A stretch of 64,000 bases of DNA from Dietzia aurantiaca (GTDB taxonomy: Bacteria > Actinomycetota > Actinomycetes > Mycobacteriales > Mycobacteriaceae): positions 1 to 64,000 of the forward strand of contig NZ_JAIFXZ010000014.1 in the NCBI RefSeq assembly GCF_021033825.1, written 5' to 3'. How positions within the stretch are numbered: the first letter of the stretch is position 1; each line of letters opens with the position of its first letter. The notes below the pieces were generated by a model. It ran no database searches. It was given only the letters and a program-made list of their open reading frames with translations, and was not told the DNA's origin. This document shows positions 52,548 through 58,312 of this stretch, piece by piece. Made by a program: the position numbers and the translations under genes.

Positions 52548-53168
52548 ATGGTCACCATGCCCTCCCCCACCGATCCCCGACGCGCCCGCTCGCGCGGCAA
52601 GCTCCTGGACGCCGCCGCGGACCTCCTCGTCTCGGGCGGCGCGGCTGCGGTGACGGTGGAGGCGGTCACGCGCCTGTCGGGCGTCGCGCGGACCACGCTG
52701 TACCGCAATTTCCCCTCGACGGACTCGCTCATCGCCGCGGCGTTCCGGCGCCTGCTGCCCACCCCTGAGCCGCCGCCGGCGGACCTGCCGGTGCGCGAGC
52801 AGCTGGTCCACCTGTGCTCCGCCCTGACCCGGCTCATCCAGACCGTGCCCATGCAACAGTCGATGCTCGGCTGGCTCGCCATGGGGCGCGGCGCCTCCGA
52901 CGACGACGAGGTGGGCGAGCTGCGCCGCAGCGTGGTCGAGTCCTACGCCGCGCCCCTCCACGAGGTCCTCTCCGCCGCGGAGGCCGACGGCACGCTCACC
53001 CCCGGCGACCGCGACCTCGCCGTGGCCCAACTCGCCGGCCCCGTGGTGCTGGCCCGCATCATCGGCCTGCGCCCGTTCACCGAGACGGATGTCGAGCGAC
53101 TCGTCGACGACTTCCTGCGCGATCGCCTGGCCGCCCCGGCGGAACGGCGACAGGAGAGCCTGCAGTGA
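52548..53168 (+). CDS. TetR/AcrR-family regulator
   Basis: A 206-residue repressor. The N-terminal helix-turn-helix is typical: RGKLLDAAADLLVSGGAAA, then VTVEAVTRLSGVARTTLYRNF. The C-terminal ligand-binding domain (LTRLIQTVPMQQSMLGWLAM) is variable, as expected. It is divergent from the MFS exporter and most likely represses it. ATG 52548 or 52557 can serve; the second begins closer to the helix-turn-helix. Its stop overlaps the mobA-moeA start (GTGA), so the Mo-cofactor fusion gene appears co-transcribed with it, an unusual link. Confidence 0.9.
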   Translation: MVTMPSPTDPRRARSRGKLLDAAADLLVSGGAAAVTVEAVTRLSGVARTTLYRNFPSTDSLIAAAFRRLLPTPEPPPADLPVREQLVHLCSALTRLIQTVPMQQSMLGWLAMGRGASDDDEVGELRRSVVESYAAPLHEVLSAAEADGTLTPGDRDLAVAQLAGPVVLARIIGLRPFTETDVERLVDDFLRDRLAAPAERRQESLQ

Positions 53169-54925
53169 GGGGCACCGTCGGCGCGATCATCCTCAGTGGC
53201 GGCCGGGGCAGCCGGCTCGGCGGGGTGGACAAGGCCCGGCTCCCGGTGGCCGGTCGGCCAATGGTCGAGACCGTGCTCGGCGCCGCCCGGGCCGTCGCGG
53301 GGCCGGCCATCACGGTGGGACCGGGTGGTGACGCCCGCGAGGACCCGCCCCATTCCGGACCGGTCGCGGGGATCGCCGCGGGACTGGCGTGCCTTCCGGA
53401 CGGTGTCGACGTCGTCGTCGTCGTGGCCTGTGACCTGCCCCAACTCGACTCCGGCACCCTCCGCGCGCTCGTCGACACCGTGCGCACGTCGGGCGCGTCG
53501 GCCGCGCTTGGCGTGGACGCCGCCGGTCACGAGCAGTACCTCCTCGCCGCGTGGGACCGTCGCGCGCTCGCCGCGCGCCTGGCGCGGCTCGAGGCCACGG
53601 GCGGCGTGGCCGGTCGAGCGGTGCGCGCCCTGTATGACGACGACGACACCGTCGCCGCCGGGTTCGTCCACGTGCCCGTCGGCGCTCAAGCACTCGACGT
53701 CGACACATGGGCCGACCTGGCCGGGCGCGGGCCGGTGGCGCTCGCGCACGTCGGCGCGATCCTGGCCGCGGGCCTGGATGCCGTGCCGGCGGCCCGGCTG
53801 GCGCCGCTTTACGCGGTGGGCGCGGTGCTGGCGGCGCCGCTGATCGCGGCCGATCCGATGCCGCGCGGGCGGGTGTCGGCGATGGACGGGTACGCGCTGG
53901 CCGGGCCCGGCGACTGGCGGCTGACCGGGGCCGCGCGGCGGGCCGGCGACGGTTCCGCGGCGACCCTGGAGCCCGGATGCGCGGCGCCGATCGCGACCGG
54001 CGCGCTCGCCCCCGCCGGAGCCGACCGGGTGCTGCGCCATGAGTTGGTCGAGGTCTCGCCTTCCGACGGCGGACCGGCACTGGTCACCGCCCTGGGCGCG
54101 GCCGAGGGCATCGACGACCTGCGGCCGGTCGGCGAGGACTGGCCGGCCGGGCACGTCCTCGCGCCGGAGGGCGCCACGCTCGACGCCGCGCTGGCCTCGG
54201 CGGCGCTGTCCTCGGCACTGACCGGGGTCGTGGCGCGGGGGCCGGTTCGGGCGACCGTCGTGACCACCGGCGACGAGGTACTGCCCGCCGACACCCCGCC
54301 CCCGCTGCCCGACGGGCGGATCCGCGACACCATCGGGCCGCTGCTCGGCGCGGTGCTCGAGCGCGCCGGCTTCGGACCCGCCACCGCCGCGGTGGAACAC
54401 TGTCCGGACACCGAGGCCGAATTCGAGGCGCTGCTGCACCGGCCGCGCGGGGCCGGGGAGGTGCTGGTGCTCGTCGGGGCCACCGGCCGCGGGGTGGCCG
54501 ACCACCTGCGACCGGCACTCGAGCGGGCCGGCGCCCGGATCGTGCTCGACGGCGTGCGGGTCCGACCCGGCGGCTCGCAGATCGTCGCAGCGCTACCCGG
54601 CGGTGGCGTGCTGCTGGGACTGCCGGGCAACCCGCTGGCGGCGGTGTGCGCTGCCGCCACCACCGGCCGCGCGCTGGTCGACGCCCTCACGGGTCGACGG
54701 CGGACGCCTGTGCTCGCGCCCGTCCCCGACCTTGCGGAACTGGCCGCCCCGACCCGATCCCGGATCCTGCCCGCGCGACCCGACGGCTCCGGCGGCTGGT
54801 CCGTGGACGAGCGGGTCCGCACCGCGCACCTCGCCGATCTCGTGGGGGCGCCGTCGCTTGCCCTGATCCCCGAGGACGGGGCCGGGGCCGGGGCCGAGCT
54901 GGTCGAGTTGATCGACTGGATCTGA
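53165..54925 (+). CDS. MobA-MoeA fusion, Mo-cofactor biosynthesis
   Basis: A 586-residue two-domain protein. Residues 1-190 are a MobA-type guanylyltransferase: ILSGGRGSRLGGVDKARLPV is the NTP-binding loop, and VVVVACDLPQLD the metal-binding strand. From about residue 200 it is MoeA-like: VSAMDGYALAGPGDWRLTG (residue 240 on), TVVTTGDEVL, and GLPGNPLAAV. The MoeA signature GGVSVGxYD reads VGATGRGVADHL, and the usual S-N-G segment reads DTIGP, so the MoeA half may be altered in activity. GTG 53165 overlaps the TetR stop by 4 bp. The fusion would join molybdate insertion and GMP attachment; narGHJ downstream needs the product. Confidence 0.85.
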   Translation: MRGTVGAIILSGGRGSRLGGVDKARLPVAGRPMVETVLGAARAVAGPAITVGPGGDAREDPPHSGPVAGIAAGLACLPDGVDVVVVVACDLPQLDSGTLRALVDTVRTSGASAALGVDAAGHEQYLLAAWDRRALAARLARLEATGGVAGRAVRALYDDDDTVAAGFVHVPVGAQALDVDTWADLAGRGPVALAHVGAILAAGLDAVPAARLAPLYAVGAVLAAPLIAADPMPRGRVSAMDGYALAGPGDWRLTGAARRAGDGSAATLEPGCAAPIATGALAPAGADRVLRHELVEVSPSDGGPALVTALGAAEGIDDLRPVGEDWPAGHVLAPEGATLDAALASAALSSALTGVVARGPVRATVVTTGDEVLPADTPPPLPDGRIRDTIGPLLGAVLERAGFGPATAAVEHCPDTEAEFEALLHRPRGAGEVLVLVGATGRGVADHLRPALERAGARIVLDGVRVRPGGSQIVAALPGGGVLLGLPGNPLAAVCAAATTGRALVDALTGRRRTPVLAPVPDLAELAAPTRSRILPARPDGSGGWSVDERVRTAHLADLVGAPSLALIPEDGAGAGAELVELIDWI

Positions 54926-54933
54926 CCCCAAAA

Positions 54934-54956
54934 AATGCGTTGTCCGAATTCGCATT
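54934..54956. promoter_or_regulatory. NsrR operator upstream of nsrR
   Basis: Inverted repeat AATGCG-N11-CGCATT, 17 bp before the GTG of nsrR. The same arrangement is found upstream of hmp (55513-55535). I infer NsrR binding and autorepression. Confidence 0.7.
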
Positions 54957-54972
54957 ATGGGATCATGGACGG

Positions 54973-55437
54973 GTGAACATCTCCCGCCACTCCGACCTCG
55001 CGCTTCGCACCCTCATGCTGCTCGCGGTGGGCGACCGGGACGGCGAACGGATGACCGCGGGCGCCATCGCCGGTTCGGTCAACGCCTCCCCCAGCCACGT
55101 CGCCAAGATCGTCTCCCGCCTGGTGGATCTCGAGGTCATCGCCTCGCGCCGCGGCCGCGGCGGAGGGCTACGGATCACCGACGCCGGACGGAACCACTCC
55201 GTGGGCGCCCTGCTCCGCACCCTCGAGGGCCCGGGCGAGGCGGTCGACTGCGAAGGCGAGCAGCCCTGCCCGCTCGCCGGGAACTGCCGACTGCGCCGGG
55301 CCTTCGCCGAGGCCCGCGAGGCATTCTTCGCCACCCTCGATCCGCTCACCGTCAACGACATCGTCCACTCCCCCACACGGCAGATCCTGCTCACACTGGA
55401 GCCGAGATTCGCCCCGACGGTCGCGGACAGCCCCTGA
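54973..55437 (+). CDS. nsrR: NsrR, nitric-oxide-sensing Rrf2-family repressor
   Basis: A 154-residue Rrf2-type winged-helix repressor. The N-terminus SRHSDLALRTLMLLA is NsrR-like; the recognition region SPSHVAKIVSRLVDLEVI leads to a Gly-rich wing. Iron-sulfur ligands are clear: Cys93, Cys99 and Cys105 in DCEGEQPCPLAGNC, and Asp8, numbering identical to that reported for the Streptomyces coelicolor 4Fe-4S NsrR. Nitric oxide attacks the cluster and releases DNA. GTG 54973 is 17 bp after the operator. It is followed by hmp on the same strand with its own operator. Confidence 0.93.
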   Translation: MNISRHSDLALRTLMLLAVGDRDGERMTAGAIAGSVNASPSHVAKIVSRLVDLEVIASRRGRGGGLRITDAGRNHSVGALLRTLEGPGEAVDCEGEQPCPLAGNCRLRRAFAEAREAFFATLDPLTVNDIVHSPTRQILLTLEPRFAPTVADSP

Positions 55438-55512
55438 CGTGCACTTCCTCAGCACTACGTACGTAGAGCACAAATATCCAGTTCAGGTGGGTATTCGAAC
55501 TCACACGGCGTG

Positions 55513-55535
55513 AATGCGCATATCGAGGTCGCATT
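55513..55535. promoter_or_regulatory. NsrR operator upstream of hmp
   Basis: AATGCG-N11-CGCATT, identical half-sites and spacing to the nsrR-proximal site, 58 bp before the hmp ATG and in promoter range. Confidence 0.72.
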
Positions 55536-55593
55536 CTGGCAGGCTCGGATTCAACGCCTCCACACCCGTAGGGGCCGGTCCGGAAAGGCTGCC

Positions 55594-56856
55594 ATGACCA
55601 CGTCACTGATCTCCCTCGAGTCGATCCTCGCCCGCCCCCGGGCGCTGTCCCCGCACAACGTCCCGGTCATCCGCGAGACACTGCCGGTCATCGGGGCCCA
55701 CATCGACGAGATCACGCCGCTGTTCTACACGACGATGTTCGACAACCACCCCGAACTGATCCGCGACACCTTCAACCGCGGCAATCAGAAGCTGGGCGCC
55801 CAGCAGCGCGCCCTGGCCGCCTCGATCGCCACGTTCGCCACCATGCTCGTGGACGGCAAGAGCCCGGTCGACCTGCTCTCGCGCATCGGACACAAGCACG
55901 CGAGCCTGGGCATCACCCCGGACCAGTACCAGATCGTCCACGACAACCTGTTCGCCGCGATCGCCCGCGTGCTCGGCGACGCCGTCACCCCCGAGGTCGC
56001 CGAGGCGTGGGACGAGGTCTACTGGATCATGGCCTCCGTCCTCATCGACTTCGAGAAGGGGCTGTACGCCGAGGCGCAGGTCGAGCCGGGTGACGTGTTC
56101 CGGACCGCCACCGTCGTCGCCCGCGAGGACGTCACGGACTCGGTCGCCGTCTTCACCCTCGCCGGGCCCGACGGCGAACGCCTCCCCGACTTCCGCCCCG
56201 GCCAGTACACCTCGGTCGGCGTGGTGCTGCCCGACGGCGCCCGCCAGCTGCGCCAGTACTCACTCTCGACCGCCTCCGGCGACGGCACCTGGCGGATCGG
56301 CGTACGCCGCGTGGACCCCGCCGCCGGCGGCTGTCCCGCCGGCGAGGTCTCCGGCTGGCTGCACGCGACGGCCGCGGTCGGTACCACACTGCAGGTCACG
56401 CTCCCGTTCGGCGACCTGGTCCTGGACCAGGCCGACGCCGAGACCGCCTCCGCCCCGGTGGTGCTGTGCTCGGCCGGCATCGGCATCACGCCGATGCTCG
56501 GCATGCTCGCCCAGCTCGCCGCGGAGGAGACCTCGCGTCGCGTGCTCGTCCTGCACGCGGACCGCTCCCCCGACCAGCACGTCCTGGCGGGCGAGGTCGC
56601 CGGCGAGGCCTCCCTGCTCGCCGACGCCGAGGTGCACTCCTGGTACGAGGACGGCGCCGACACCGCTTCCGGCCCGGGCACCGTCCACCACGGGCTCATG
56701 GACCTGTCCGCGGTGCCGCTGCCCGCCGACGCGCACGTCTTCCTGTGCGGCTCCGCCGGGTTCCTGCAGGCGGTACGGCCGGCCTTCCTGGCGGCCGGCA
56801 TCCCGGAGGATCGGCTCCACGCCGAGCTGTTCGCCCCCAATGACTGGCTCGTCTGA
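55594..56856 (+). CDS. hmp: Flavohemoprotein, nitric oxide dioxygenase
   Basis: Converts nitric oxide to nitrate using O2 and NAD(P)H. Domains of the 420-residue protein: globin 1-150, with the distal Tyr45 (LFYTTM) and the proximal His102 (GHKHASLGI); a FAD domain from about 160, with RQYSLSTAS; and the NAD domain with CSAGIGITPMLGML. ATG 55594 follows CGGAAAGG; the frame is open upstream to 55510 but that part includes the operator. It is controlled by the NsrR site in front. Placed between nsrR and narK, it removes NO produced from nitrate/nitrite reduction. Confidence 0.95.
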   Translation: MTTSLISLESILARPRALSPHNVPVIRETLPVIGAHIDEITPLFYTTMFDNHPELIRDTFNRGNQKLGAQQRALAASIATFATMLVDGKSPVDLLSRIGHKHASLGITPDQYQIVHDNLFAAIARVLGDAVTPEVAEAWDEVYWIMASVLIDFEKGLYAEAQVEPGDVFRTATVVAREDVTDSVAVFTLAGPDGERLPDFRPGQYTSVGVVLPDGARQLRQYSLSTASGDGTWRIGVRRVDPAAGGCPAGEVSGWLHATAAVGTTLQVTLPFGDLVLDQADAETASAPVVLCSAGIGITPMLGMLAQLAAEETSRRVLVLHADRSPDQHVLAGEVAGEASLLADAEVHSWYEDGADTASGPGTVHHGLMDLSAVPLPADAHVFLCGSAGFLQAVRPAFLAAGIPEDRLHAELFAPNDWLV

Positions 56857-57034
56857 GCCACTCTCTGTTGACGCTGAAAACATTGCTGCGGCGAATATTT
56901 GTCCGGTAACGAACCCCGCCACATTCGCCGAACCGCCCACGGCGCGGTGACGGACTGTCGCACACTCGGGATTCGGGCCCGTTCCCCTGTCGTCCGTGCC
57001 CGACCCGCGAGACTCTGACGTGAAAGGGCCACCC

Positions 57035-58312
57035 GTGTCCTCAGGCTCCGACCCCGTGACCACCGACCCCTCCGGCGCGCCCGCCATCGATCCCAAGAAG
57101 GCTAACCTCGCCCTGGCCCTGTGCTTCGCCGGGTTCCTGCTCACCTTCTGGGCGTGGGCGCTCATGGGCCCCCTCGGCGCCACCTACAAAGAAGACCTGG
57201 GGCTCTCCTCGTTCCAGCAGTCCCTGGTGGTGGCGCTGCCCGTGGTGGTGGGATCGCTCGGCCGGATCCCGGTGGGCGCGCTGACCGACCGGCTCGGCGG
57301 CCGCACGATGTTCCCGCTCGTCGCGGCGTTGACGATCATCCCCACGCTCTTCGTCGGCTTCGTCGACAGCAGCCTGATCGTCCTGCTCATCGGCGGCTTC
57401 TTCCTCGGGATCGGCGGCACCTCCTTCGCGGTGGGCGTCCCCACCGTCAACTCGTGGTTCCCGCCGAACCGGCGCGGCACGGCGATCGGCATCTTCGGCG
57501 CCGGCATGGGCGGCACCGCGGTCGCGGCGTTCACCACGCTGCGGCTCCGCGACGCTCTCGGCGACCAGGCCCCGTTCATCCTGGTGGCGGTCCTGTTGGC
57601 GATCTACGCCGTGACAGCCCGGATGCTGCTGCAGAACTCGCCGGCCTGGGCACCGGCCCAGGGCAACTGGGTGGTCAAGGCCGCCAGGACGCTCGCCCGA
57701 CCCGTGACGCTCAAACTGTCGTGGATGTACGCGATGGGCTTCGGCGGGTTCGTGGCGTTCTCCGTGTACCTGCCCACCTACCTGCACAACTTCTACGAAC
57801 TGGACATCGAGGACGCCGCGCTGCGCACCGCGATCTTCGTGGTGGTCGCCGTGGCGTGCCGCCCCCTCGGCGGTGCGCTGGCGGACCGGTTCGACGGCGG
57901 GTGGGTCCTGGTCATCAGCTACGTGGTCACCGGCCTCATGGCCGCGGCCGCGTCCGAGCGCATGCCCCTGATCGGGATCGACGACGGCAGCTTCTACCCG
58001 GTGGGCACGGCCGTGTTCCTCGTCATGGCCGCCTCGCTGGGTGTCGCCTCCGGCGCGGTGTTCGCCCTGGTCGCCGAACTGGTCGAGCCGTCCTCGGTCG
58101 GGTCGGTCACAGGCATCGTCGGCGCCGTGGGCGGGCTCGGCGGGTTCGTCCCGCCGCTCCTGCTCGGCTACTTCTGGACCGCCGACAGCAACTACCGCAC
58201 CGGCCTGCTGCTGCTGTTCGCCCTCTCGGTCATCACCGCGGCACTCACCTGGCTGTGGTTCCTCCGCACCAGTCGCAGCGCGTCCACCGCCACGGAAAGG
58301 ACTCCGGCATGA
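57035..58312 (+). CDS. narK: Nitrate/nitrite transporter NarK
   Basis: A 425-residue MFS protein with 12 transmembrane helices that imports nitrate or exchanges nitrate for nitrite. GIGGTSFAVGVPTVNSWF and RRGTAIGIFGAGMGGTAV are the two nitrate-signature regions with their Gly-rich motifs; FLLTFWAWALMGPLGATY in helix 1 is typical. GTG 57035 follows AAAGGG; upstream GTG 56996 is also in frame but less supported. Its last codon overlaps the narG ATG (ATGA). The 178-bp gap upstream has a TTGACG box (56869) but I see no copy of the NsrR site. Confidence 0.94.
   Translation: MSSGSDPVTTDPSGAPAIDPKKANLALALCFAGFLLTFWAWALMGPLGATYKEDLGLSSFQQSLVVALPVVVGSLGRIPVGALTDRLGGRTMFPLVAALTIIPTLFVGFVDSSLIVLLIGGFFLGIGGTSFAVGVPTVNSWFPPNRRGTAIGIFGAGMGGTAVAAFTTLRLRDALGDQAPFILVAVLLAIYAVTARMLLQNSPAWAPAQGNWVVKAARTLARPVTLKLSWMYAMGFGGFVAFSVYLPTYLHNFYELDIEDAALRTAIFVVVAVACRPLGGALADRFDGGWVLVISYVVTGLMAAAASERMPLIGIDDGSFYPVGTAVFLVMAASLGVASGAVFALVAELVEPSSVGSVTGIVGAVGGLGGFVPPLLLGYFWTADSNYRTGLLLLFALSVITAALTWLWFLRTSRSASTATERTPA

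Follow-up and report, generated by a model that had tools for sequence, protein, structure and literature searches.

A rare pair of predicted NsrR operators and a second conserved element at the nsrR-hmp locus of Dietzia aurantiaca

Genes and features at the locus

The window, that is, the whole stretch of 64,000 nucleotides of Dietzia aurantiaca DNA analysed here (G+C content 70.7%), carries an Rrf2-family regulator gene, nsrR (54973..55437, + strand, 154 aa, GTG start), followed by hmp (55594..56856, +), which encodes a flavohaemoglobin of 420 aa with globin, FAD-binding, and NAD-binding domains. A terminator-like hairpin, recognized by consensus match only, lies at the end of hmp (56845..56860, +). 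Next comes a gene for a NarK-family transporter (start at 57035 or 56996, end at 58312) and then narG (identified by eye), narH and narJ (Pfam), and narI (by eye). Directly upstream of nsrR, MobA-like and MoeA-like domains are found together in a single reading frame of 585 residues (53168-54925).

The motif AATGCG-N11-CGCATT, claimed in an earlier note on this DNA to occur twice, is indeed present in two exact copies: predicted NsrR operator 1 (AATGCGTTGTCCGAATTCGCATT, 54934..54956, +) before nsrR, and predicted NsrR operator 2 (AATGCGCATATCGAGGTCGCATT, 55513..55535, +) before hmp. The same note placed them "just before" the genes; both are upstream, at distances of 16 bp from operator 1 to the likely GTG start of nsrR (54973) and 58 bp from operator 2 to the likely ATG start of hmp (55594).

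An exact operator pair that is rare in the genome

At full match, the genome of this Dietzia (3,768,721 bases) contains the two copies in the window and none besides, the reversed-pattern control having no exact copy; the scatter of copies through unrelated genes that the earlier note had raised against its own reading is thus absent at this stringency. From base composition, 0.073 exact copies would be expected per genome, and 1.6e-6 pairs at so short a distance. When up to two mismatches are allowed, both copies remain the sole matches in the window, but shuffled sequences average 1.22 matches at that looseness, so that the strength of the pair rests on its exactness. Genome-wide, the search with mismatches that had been proposed yields 38 sites with up to two mismatches versus 34 for the reversed-pattern control, which places the looser matches at chance level. 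Scored with the operator matrix described below, the window sites stand out from these 38 near matches with 17.8 (operator 2) and 16.1 (operator 1), the next best reaching 8.8, and we rejected further operators among them. Across 23 Dietzia genomes, seven exact sites occur in five genomes, versus one for the control; six of the seven precede nsrR or hmp, and the other, in G002:C18, overlaps the terminal part of an ORF that by eye resembles a transposase.

Position of the operator across the order

We surveyed 298 genomes of the order to which Dietzia belongs and found an nsrR homologue in 62, the present genome included. The 66 loci analysed comprise 17 from Dietzia and 49 of the 61 from other genomes (12 were left out). 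A symmetric matrix, whose seeds included sites of Streptomyces coelicolor NsrR (ScNsrR) that are no longer part of its final version, was refined on the 66 regions upstream of nsrR and then applied to these same regions, in which close relatives are not independent; the fixed position of the site and the published ScNsrR operators are more independent checks than the matrix counts. Mononucleotide-shuffled upstream regions give best scores per 150 bp with a 95th percentile of 4.7 and a 99th percentile of 8.2. The usual place of the site is 13-20 bp from the start codon; 48 of the 66 loci (14 of 17 in Dietzia) reach a score of at least 5 there, and 57 have a score above 7 within 150 bp, about a dozen of them away from the usual place, while nine loci have no score above 7 within 150 bp upstream of nsrR. 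Among the 18 loci with no site of at least 5 at the usual place are three from Dietzia (G003, G019, and G022) and seven with a strong site 88-114 bp before nsrR instead. These seven (L105-L107, L109-L111, and L113), all from one genus, have operator scores of 20.2-25.7 and no adjacent hmp within the stretch read.

The published ScNsrR operators of hmpA1 and hmpA2 score 18.5 and 17.5 on the final matrix, compared with the 16.1 and 17.8 of the window sites. The consensus reads AAnnSG-mAT...ATk-CSnnTT. Of the earlier description, identical halves around a differing 11-bp centre, the first part stands, the halves being exact; the centre, however, is not free, since its outer mAT...ATk is conserved in other genera. 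The window site can be regarded as the version found in Dietzia of a 23-bp operator common before nsrR. Although patterns with up to two mismatches are common in the genome, chance, or a repeat without regulatory role, is an extremely improbable explanation for an exact close pair so rarely expected, at a position that is conserved in nearly three quarters of the loci.

The position of the operator can also be related to putative promoters. In 31 of 49 loci, a TAnnnT hexamer begins at -13 or -12 relative to the start codon of nsrR. This placement suggests that the nsrR transcript has no leader and that the operator covers the -35/spacer region. By analogy with these loci, the -10 hexamer of nsrR in the window would be GATCAT (xAnnnT; 54961..54966, +) and its transcript is probably leaderless. 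The putative -10 hexamer of hmp is CAGGCT (55540..55545, +), based on alignment by eye to the nsrR-hmp promoter of the Dietzia genomes that we call group B (see below). Both hexamers are weak -10 matches, and a generic scanner found no canonical sigma-70 promoter. The leader of hmp appeared by eye to contain a conserved RNA hairpin, a reading that we dropped because its folding did not clearly surpass that of shuffles (z values of 0.25, 1.08, -1.57, and -0.78).

Identity of the regulator

The gene names proposed from the letters alone, nsrR and hmp, hold: the regulator has an Rrf2 domain (PF02082, 98.3 bits, cut-off 30) and 53% identity to ScNsrR over 145 residues, and hmp encodes a three-domain flavohaemoglobin. 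Residues Asp8, Cys93, Cys99, and Cys105 of the regulator align without gaps with the cluster ligands of ScNsrR, as given in the part of PMC5411485 consulted, where Arg12 is also noted; this arginine is kept, as is Arg60, described as a wing residue of ScNsrR (PMC9338935). By contrast, Asn97 of ScNsrR, which is assigned a part in positioning the recognition helix (PMC5411485), is a glutamine in the Dietzia protein. In a search of PDB chains, ScNsrR was the closest match (5n07/7b0c, E 4.4e-43 and 3.8e-39), the other three matches within E 0.001 being CymR (two) and a putative regulator.

The operators might instead serve another Rrf2 sensor, RsrR-, IscR-, or RirA-like, that responds to redox state or iron and not to NO. 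In fact, the Dietzia protein scores 64.2 bits against the NCBIfam NsrR equivalog model NF008240, below its cut-off of 182 and close to the 60.2 bits it obtains for RirA, and RsrR of Streptomyces venezuelae was itself initially taken for an NsrR homologue (PMC5015018). Nevertheless, the characterized ScNsrR also falls below this cut-off (91.6 bits) and gives 67.4 bits for RirA, the close solved relatives are ScNsrR, with no chain named RsrR, IscR, or RirA within E 0.001, and the gene adjoins hmp in every one of the 16 Dietzia genomes that yielded both, all of which makes a different sensor very unlikely.

Four Dietzia genomes (G002, G005, G013, and G014; L037-L040) carry between nsrR and hmp a ferredoxin-like ORF recognized by eye (~72 aa, DDCEGYGRC...), for which no NCBIfam match was found and whose closest protein elsewhere in the present genome is 42% identical. 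The window is devoid of this ORF; in the region 55380-55450, a tail (GACGTGCACTTC) remains and appears to supply the stop codon of nsrR.

One operator or two

The 23 Dietzia genomes contain an nsrR homologue in 17 cases, hmp in 17, and both in 16, always as neighbours, in two main arrangements. Group A (the present genome G000, G002, G005, G006, G013, G014, and G017) has a site before nsrR and, in the six of its genomes that yielded hmp, a promoter-like region of its own for that gene. In group B (G003, G004, G009, G010, G012, G015, G016, G018, and G019), hmp follows nsrR at a distance of 89-140 bp and there is a single operator, located before nsrR, which reads AATGCG-N11-CGCAAT in six of the nine genomes and is weaker in G003, G016, and G019. 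The remaining genome, G022 (L035, L052), encodes a divergent NsrR homologue (37%) beside hmp (69%) with no recognizable operator, and this gene pair is possibly of different origin. Outside Dietzia, both genes are in line at 36 loci with a median gap of -5.5 bp (gene starts extrapolated from alignments). In 12 of these the gap is too short for scoring a site before hmp, and two of the 24 scorable loci exceed the shuffle 99th percentile of 7.2: L100 (15.6) and L074 (18.2), the latter from a distant family member with the very AATGCG-N11-CGCATT found in the window. These two loci, both from family members with small genomes (2.9 and 2.7 Mb, respectively), have a scoring site before hmp and not before nsrR.

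The autoregulated repressor also controlling hmp that the earlier note envisaged is supported by the conserved operators, but a separate hmp operator is not general: a layout with two operators is exceptional, and a single one ahead of an nsrR-hmp operon seems to suffice in most relatives. This raises the alternative that operator 1 alone matters, with read-through from the nsrR promoter driving hmp and operator 2 surviving as a decaying relic of a joint promoter. The mostly end-to-end arrangement of the two genes outside Dietzia would fit such a scenario, as would the poor hmp operator of three of the six group-A genomes (-12.5 in G002 and -2.9 in G013/G014, at a homologous place chosen by eye). 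Yet operator 2 scores 17.8 in the window, 20.4 in G005, and 18.3 in G006, and it stands 8 bp after a second conserved element (see below), so that we consider read-through from a single functional operator unlikely, if less so than the two alternatives discussed above.

A second conserved element beside the hmp operator

This element (AAATATCCAGTTCAGGTGGGTATTCGAACTCAC, 55472-55504) ends 8 bp upstream of operator 2. Its left part (AAATATCCAGTTCAGGTGGGTATTCG, 55472..55497, +) is the sole match to AAATNY-N12..13-GTATTYG in the genome, and the stretch GTA-N8-CAC (GTATTCGAACTCAC, 55491..55504, +), with CRP/GlxR-like spacing, reaches its downstream end. The same arrangement of element and operator precedes nsrR in group B and in other family members. 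Of the 48 operator loci, 22 (7 from Dietzia, 14 from other family members, and 1 from outside the family) have a GTR-N8-CAC that ends 7-9 bp short of the operator, and 27 loci have one anywhere in 60 bp, versus 1.34 expected from mononucleotide shuffles; AAA-N14..16-GTRTT is present upstream of nsrR in 9 of 17 Dietzia loci and 11 of 49 others (dinucleotide-shuffle means 0.06 and 0.34), both patterns having been drawn up after viewing these sequences, among which close relatives are not independent. In all 20 loci the latter pattern ends 54-57 bp before the start codon, and the 11 non-Dietzia cases all belong to the same family as Dietzia (24 non-Dietzia family loci examined). We rejected the upstream element as an extra NsrR site (AATATC-N11-GGTATT), since it scores 4.9 and, by eye, the groups differ in its spacing (N11 versus N10).

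The consensus of CRP is TGTGA-N6-TCACA, and GTG-N8-CAC has the CRP spacing, although the left half of the window element reads GGTAT. The genome encodes a Crp/Fnr-family protein (L117:1489-2262, E 1.5e-113 to 3i54) that we take to be the GlxR orthologue, the matched PDB entries presumably being Mycobacterium tuberculosis CRP and Corynebacterium glutamicum GlxR. Because of this close CRP/GlxR-type protein and the CRP spacing, cAMP-CRP/GlxR would be the first candidate for the protein binding the second element, at about even odds. A second CRP/FNR-family protein, without cysteine, is encoded at L118:1495-2172 (minus strand).

Related patterns occur before narK. Among 12 Dietzia narK loci, of which L092 is partly masked and the match in L093 begins inside the gene, AAA-N14..16-GTRTT is present in 8 and GTRTTTR-N5..7-TAACRA in 9 (shuffle means 0.06 and 0.00); L083 misses the first pattern only, and L092, L093, and the window miss both, the window having a degenerate copy of the element (AAAACATTGCTGCGGCGAATATTT, 56877..56900, +) that matches neither. 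The narK and hmp elements share AAA...GTATT and differ beyond it. The narK upstream regions L083-L091 have a conserved GTRTTTR-N5-TAACRA with a TTG-N8-CAA dyad, of FNR type, that can be seen by eye; the corresponding stretch of the window is 56877-56910. As the earlier note had found by eye, the narK gap of the window has no third operator copy (best matrix score -5.5); we rejected an NsrR site at narK in general, the best of the 12 Dietzia loci scoring 5.1 (L086) inside the start of the gene.

A possible source of NO is an 885-aa copper nitrite reductase-like protein encoded downstream, beyond the window (L114:7497-10154, minus strand; G000:C6:69396-72053). By eye its N-terminal part looks membrane-like; it also has a cupredoxin domain, and its C-terminal part resembles copper nitrite reductase, obtaining 169 bits against TIGR02376, below the cut-off of 296. 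No NsrR site was accepted at this gene, the top score in the 13.1-kb L114 being 4.8.

We tentatively propose, at somewhat less than even odds, that the nsrR-hmp promoter of this family is composite: a second regulator would bind AAA-N14..16-GTRTT...CAC directly before the NsrR operator and would, within Dietzia, also act at narK, tying nitrate respiration to NO removal by a protein other than NsrR, and one Dietzia lineage would have split the composite promoter off to hmp alone, with nsrR gaining a simple operator. An nsrR tree (midpoint rooting, long branches) gives only moderate support to the two Dietzia groups, with 90/96 for the split between group A and the rest (group B and outgroups) and 90/84 for group B as a unit. 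The composite promoter precedes nsrR in group B and several outgroups and hmp in group A, which would be most simply explained if, in group A, nsrR was moved from behind this promoter and acquired a new simple operator. This suggests how a single shared operator became two in one lineage. The second element also offers a concrete DNA bait for a protein that may couple the removal of NO to nitrate respiration or energy state.

Proposed switch and comparison with known systems

Most likely (with a probability of about 0.92), both sites serve as operators of the NsrR encoded next to them, an iron-sulphur repressor of the Rrf2 family. By analogy with work on S. coelicolor, from which we infer operator binding, the [4Fe-4S] cluster, and release by NO, a cluster-bearing NsrR dimer would occupy both 23-bp sites when NO is absent, covering what, from the predicted promoter positions, would be the -35/spacer regions of nsrR and hmp and keeping their expression low. 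NO would attack the cluster and NsrR would release the DNA, upon which hmp would be made and NO removed, while newly made NsrR would restore repression. According to the sections of PMC4432287 available to us, ScNsrR recognizes a 23-bp 11-1-11 repeat and binding is lost when the AA/TT ends are removed; both ends are present in the two window sites. Also described are a site for each of nsrR and the adjacent hmpA1 in S. coelicolor and its retention in six Streptomyces nsrR promoters, but only weak binding of ScNsrR to Escherichia coli and Bacillus subtilis sites, so that binding across species should not be assumed.

Among the known systems, ArnR of C. glutamicum is likewise an NO-reactive Fe-S repressor governing hmp in an actinobacterium with narKGHJI, although, as far as the consulted part of PMC12343034 goes, it has no significant homology to Rrf2 proteins. 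ArnR also represses narK (PMC12343034), whereas Dietzia narK is devoid of an NsrR operator; narKGHJI is activated in C. glutamicum by GlxR (PMC12343034). Vibrio vulnificus hmpA combines NsrR repression with CRP input (PMC8175989), to which the CRP-like element of Dietzia bears a resemblance only; there, in contrast with Dietzia, nsrR and hmpA are divergent, and CRP acts probably via repressing nsrR and lrp (PMC8175989).

NsrR control of hmp in actinobacteria is already well established, and none of the matches listed in our literature search concerned Dietzia NsrR by title. Like the S. coelicolor NsrR/hmpA1/hmpA2 regulon, as described in the portions consulted of PMC4432287, PMC9338935, PMC5411485, and PMC2577008 (see also PMC4861436), the Dietzia system has an Rrf2 repressor with the same ligand positions, a 23-bp operator of the 11-1-11 type that keeps the AA/TT ends, a site before each of nsrR and the adjacent hmp, and few targets. 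It differs in the perfect outer arms AATGCG/CGCATT of its sites, with less of the inner CAT/ATG, in the single hmp found instead of two, and in a locus that adjoins respiratory nar genes and bears a second conserved element beside the hmp operator. By means of an explicit operator matrix, the experimentally known Streptomyces NsrR circuit can be extended to Dietzia and further members of its order.
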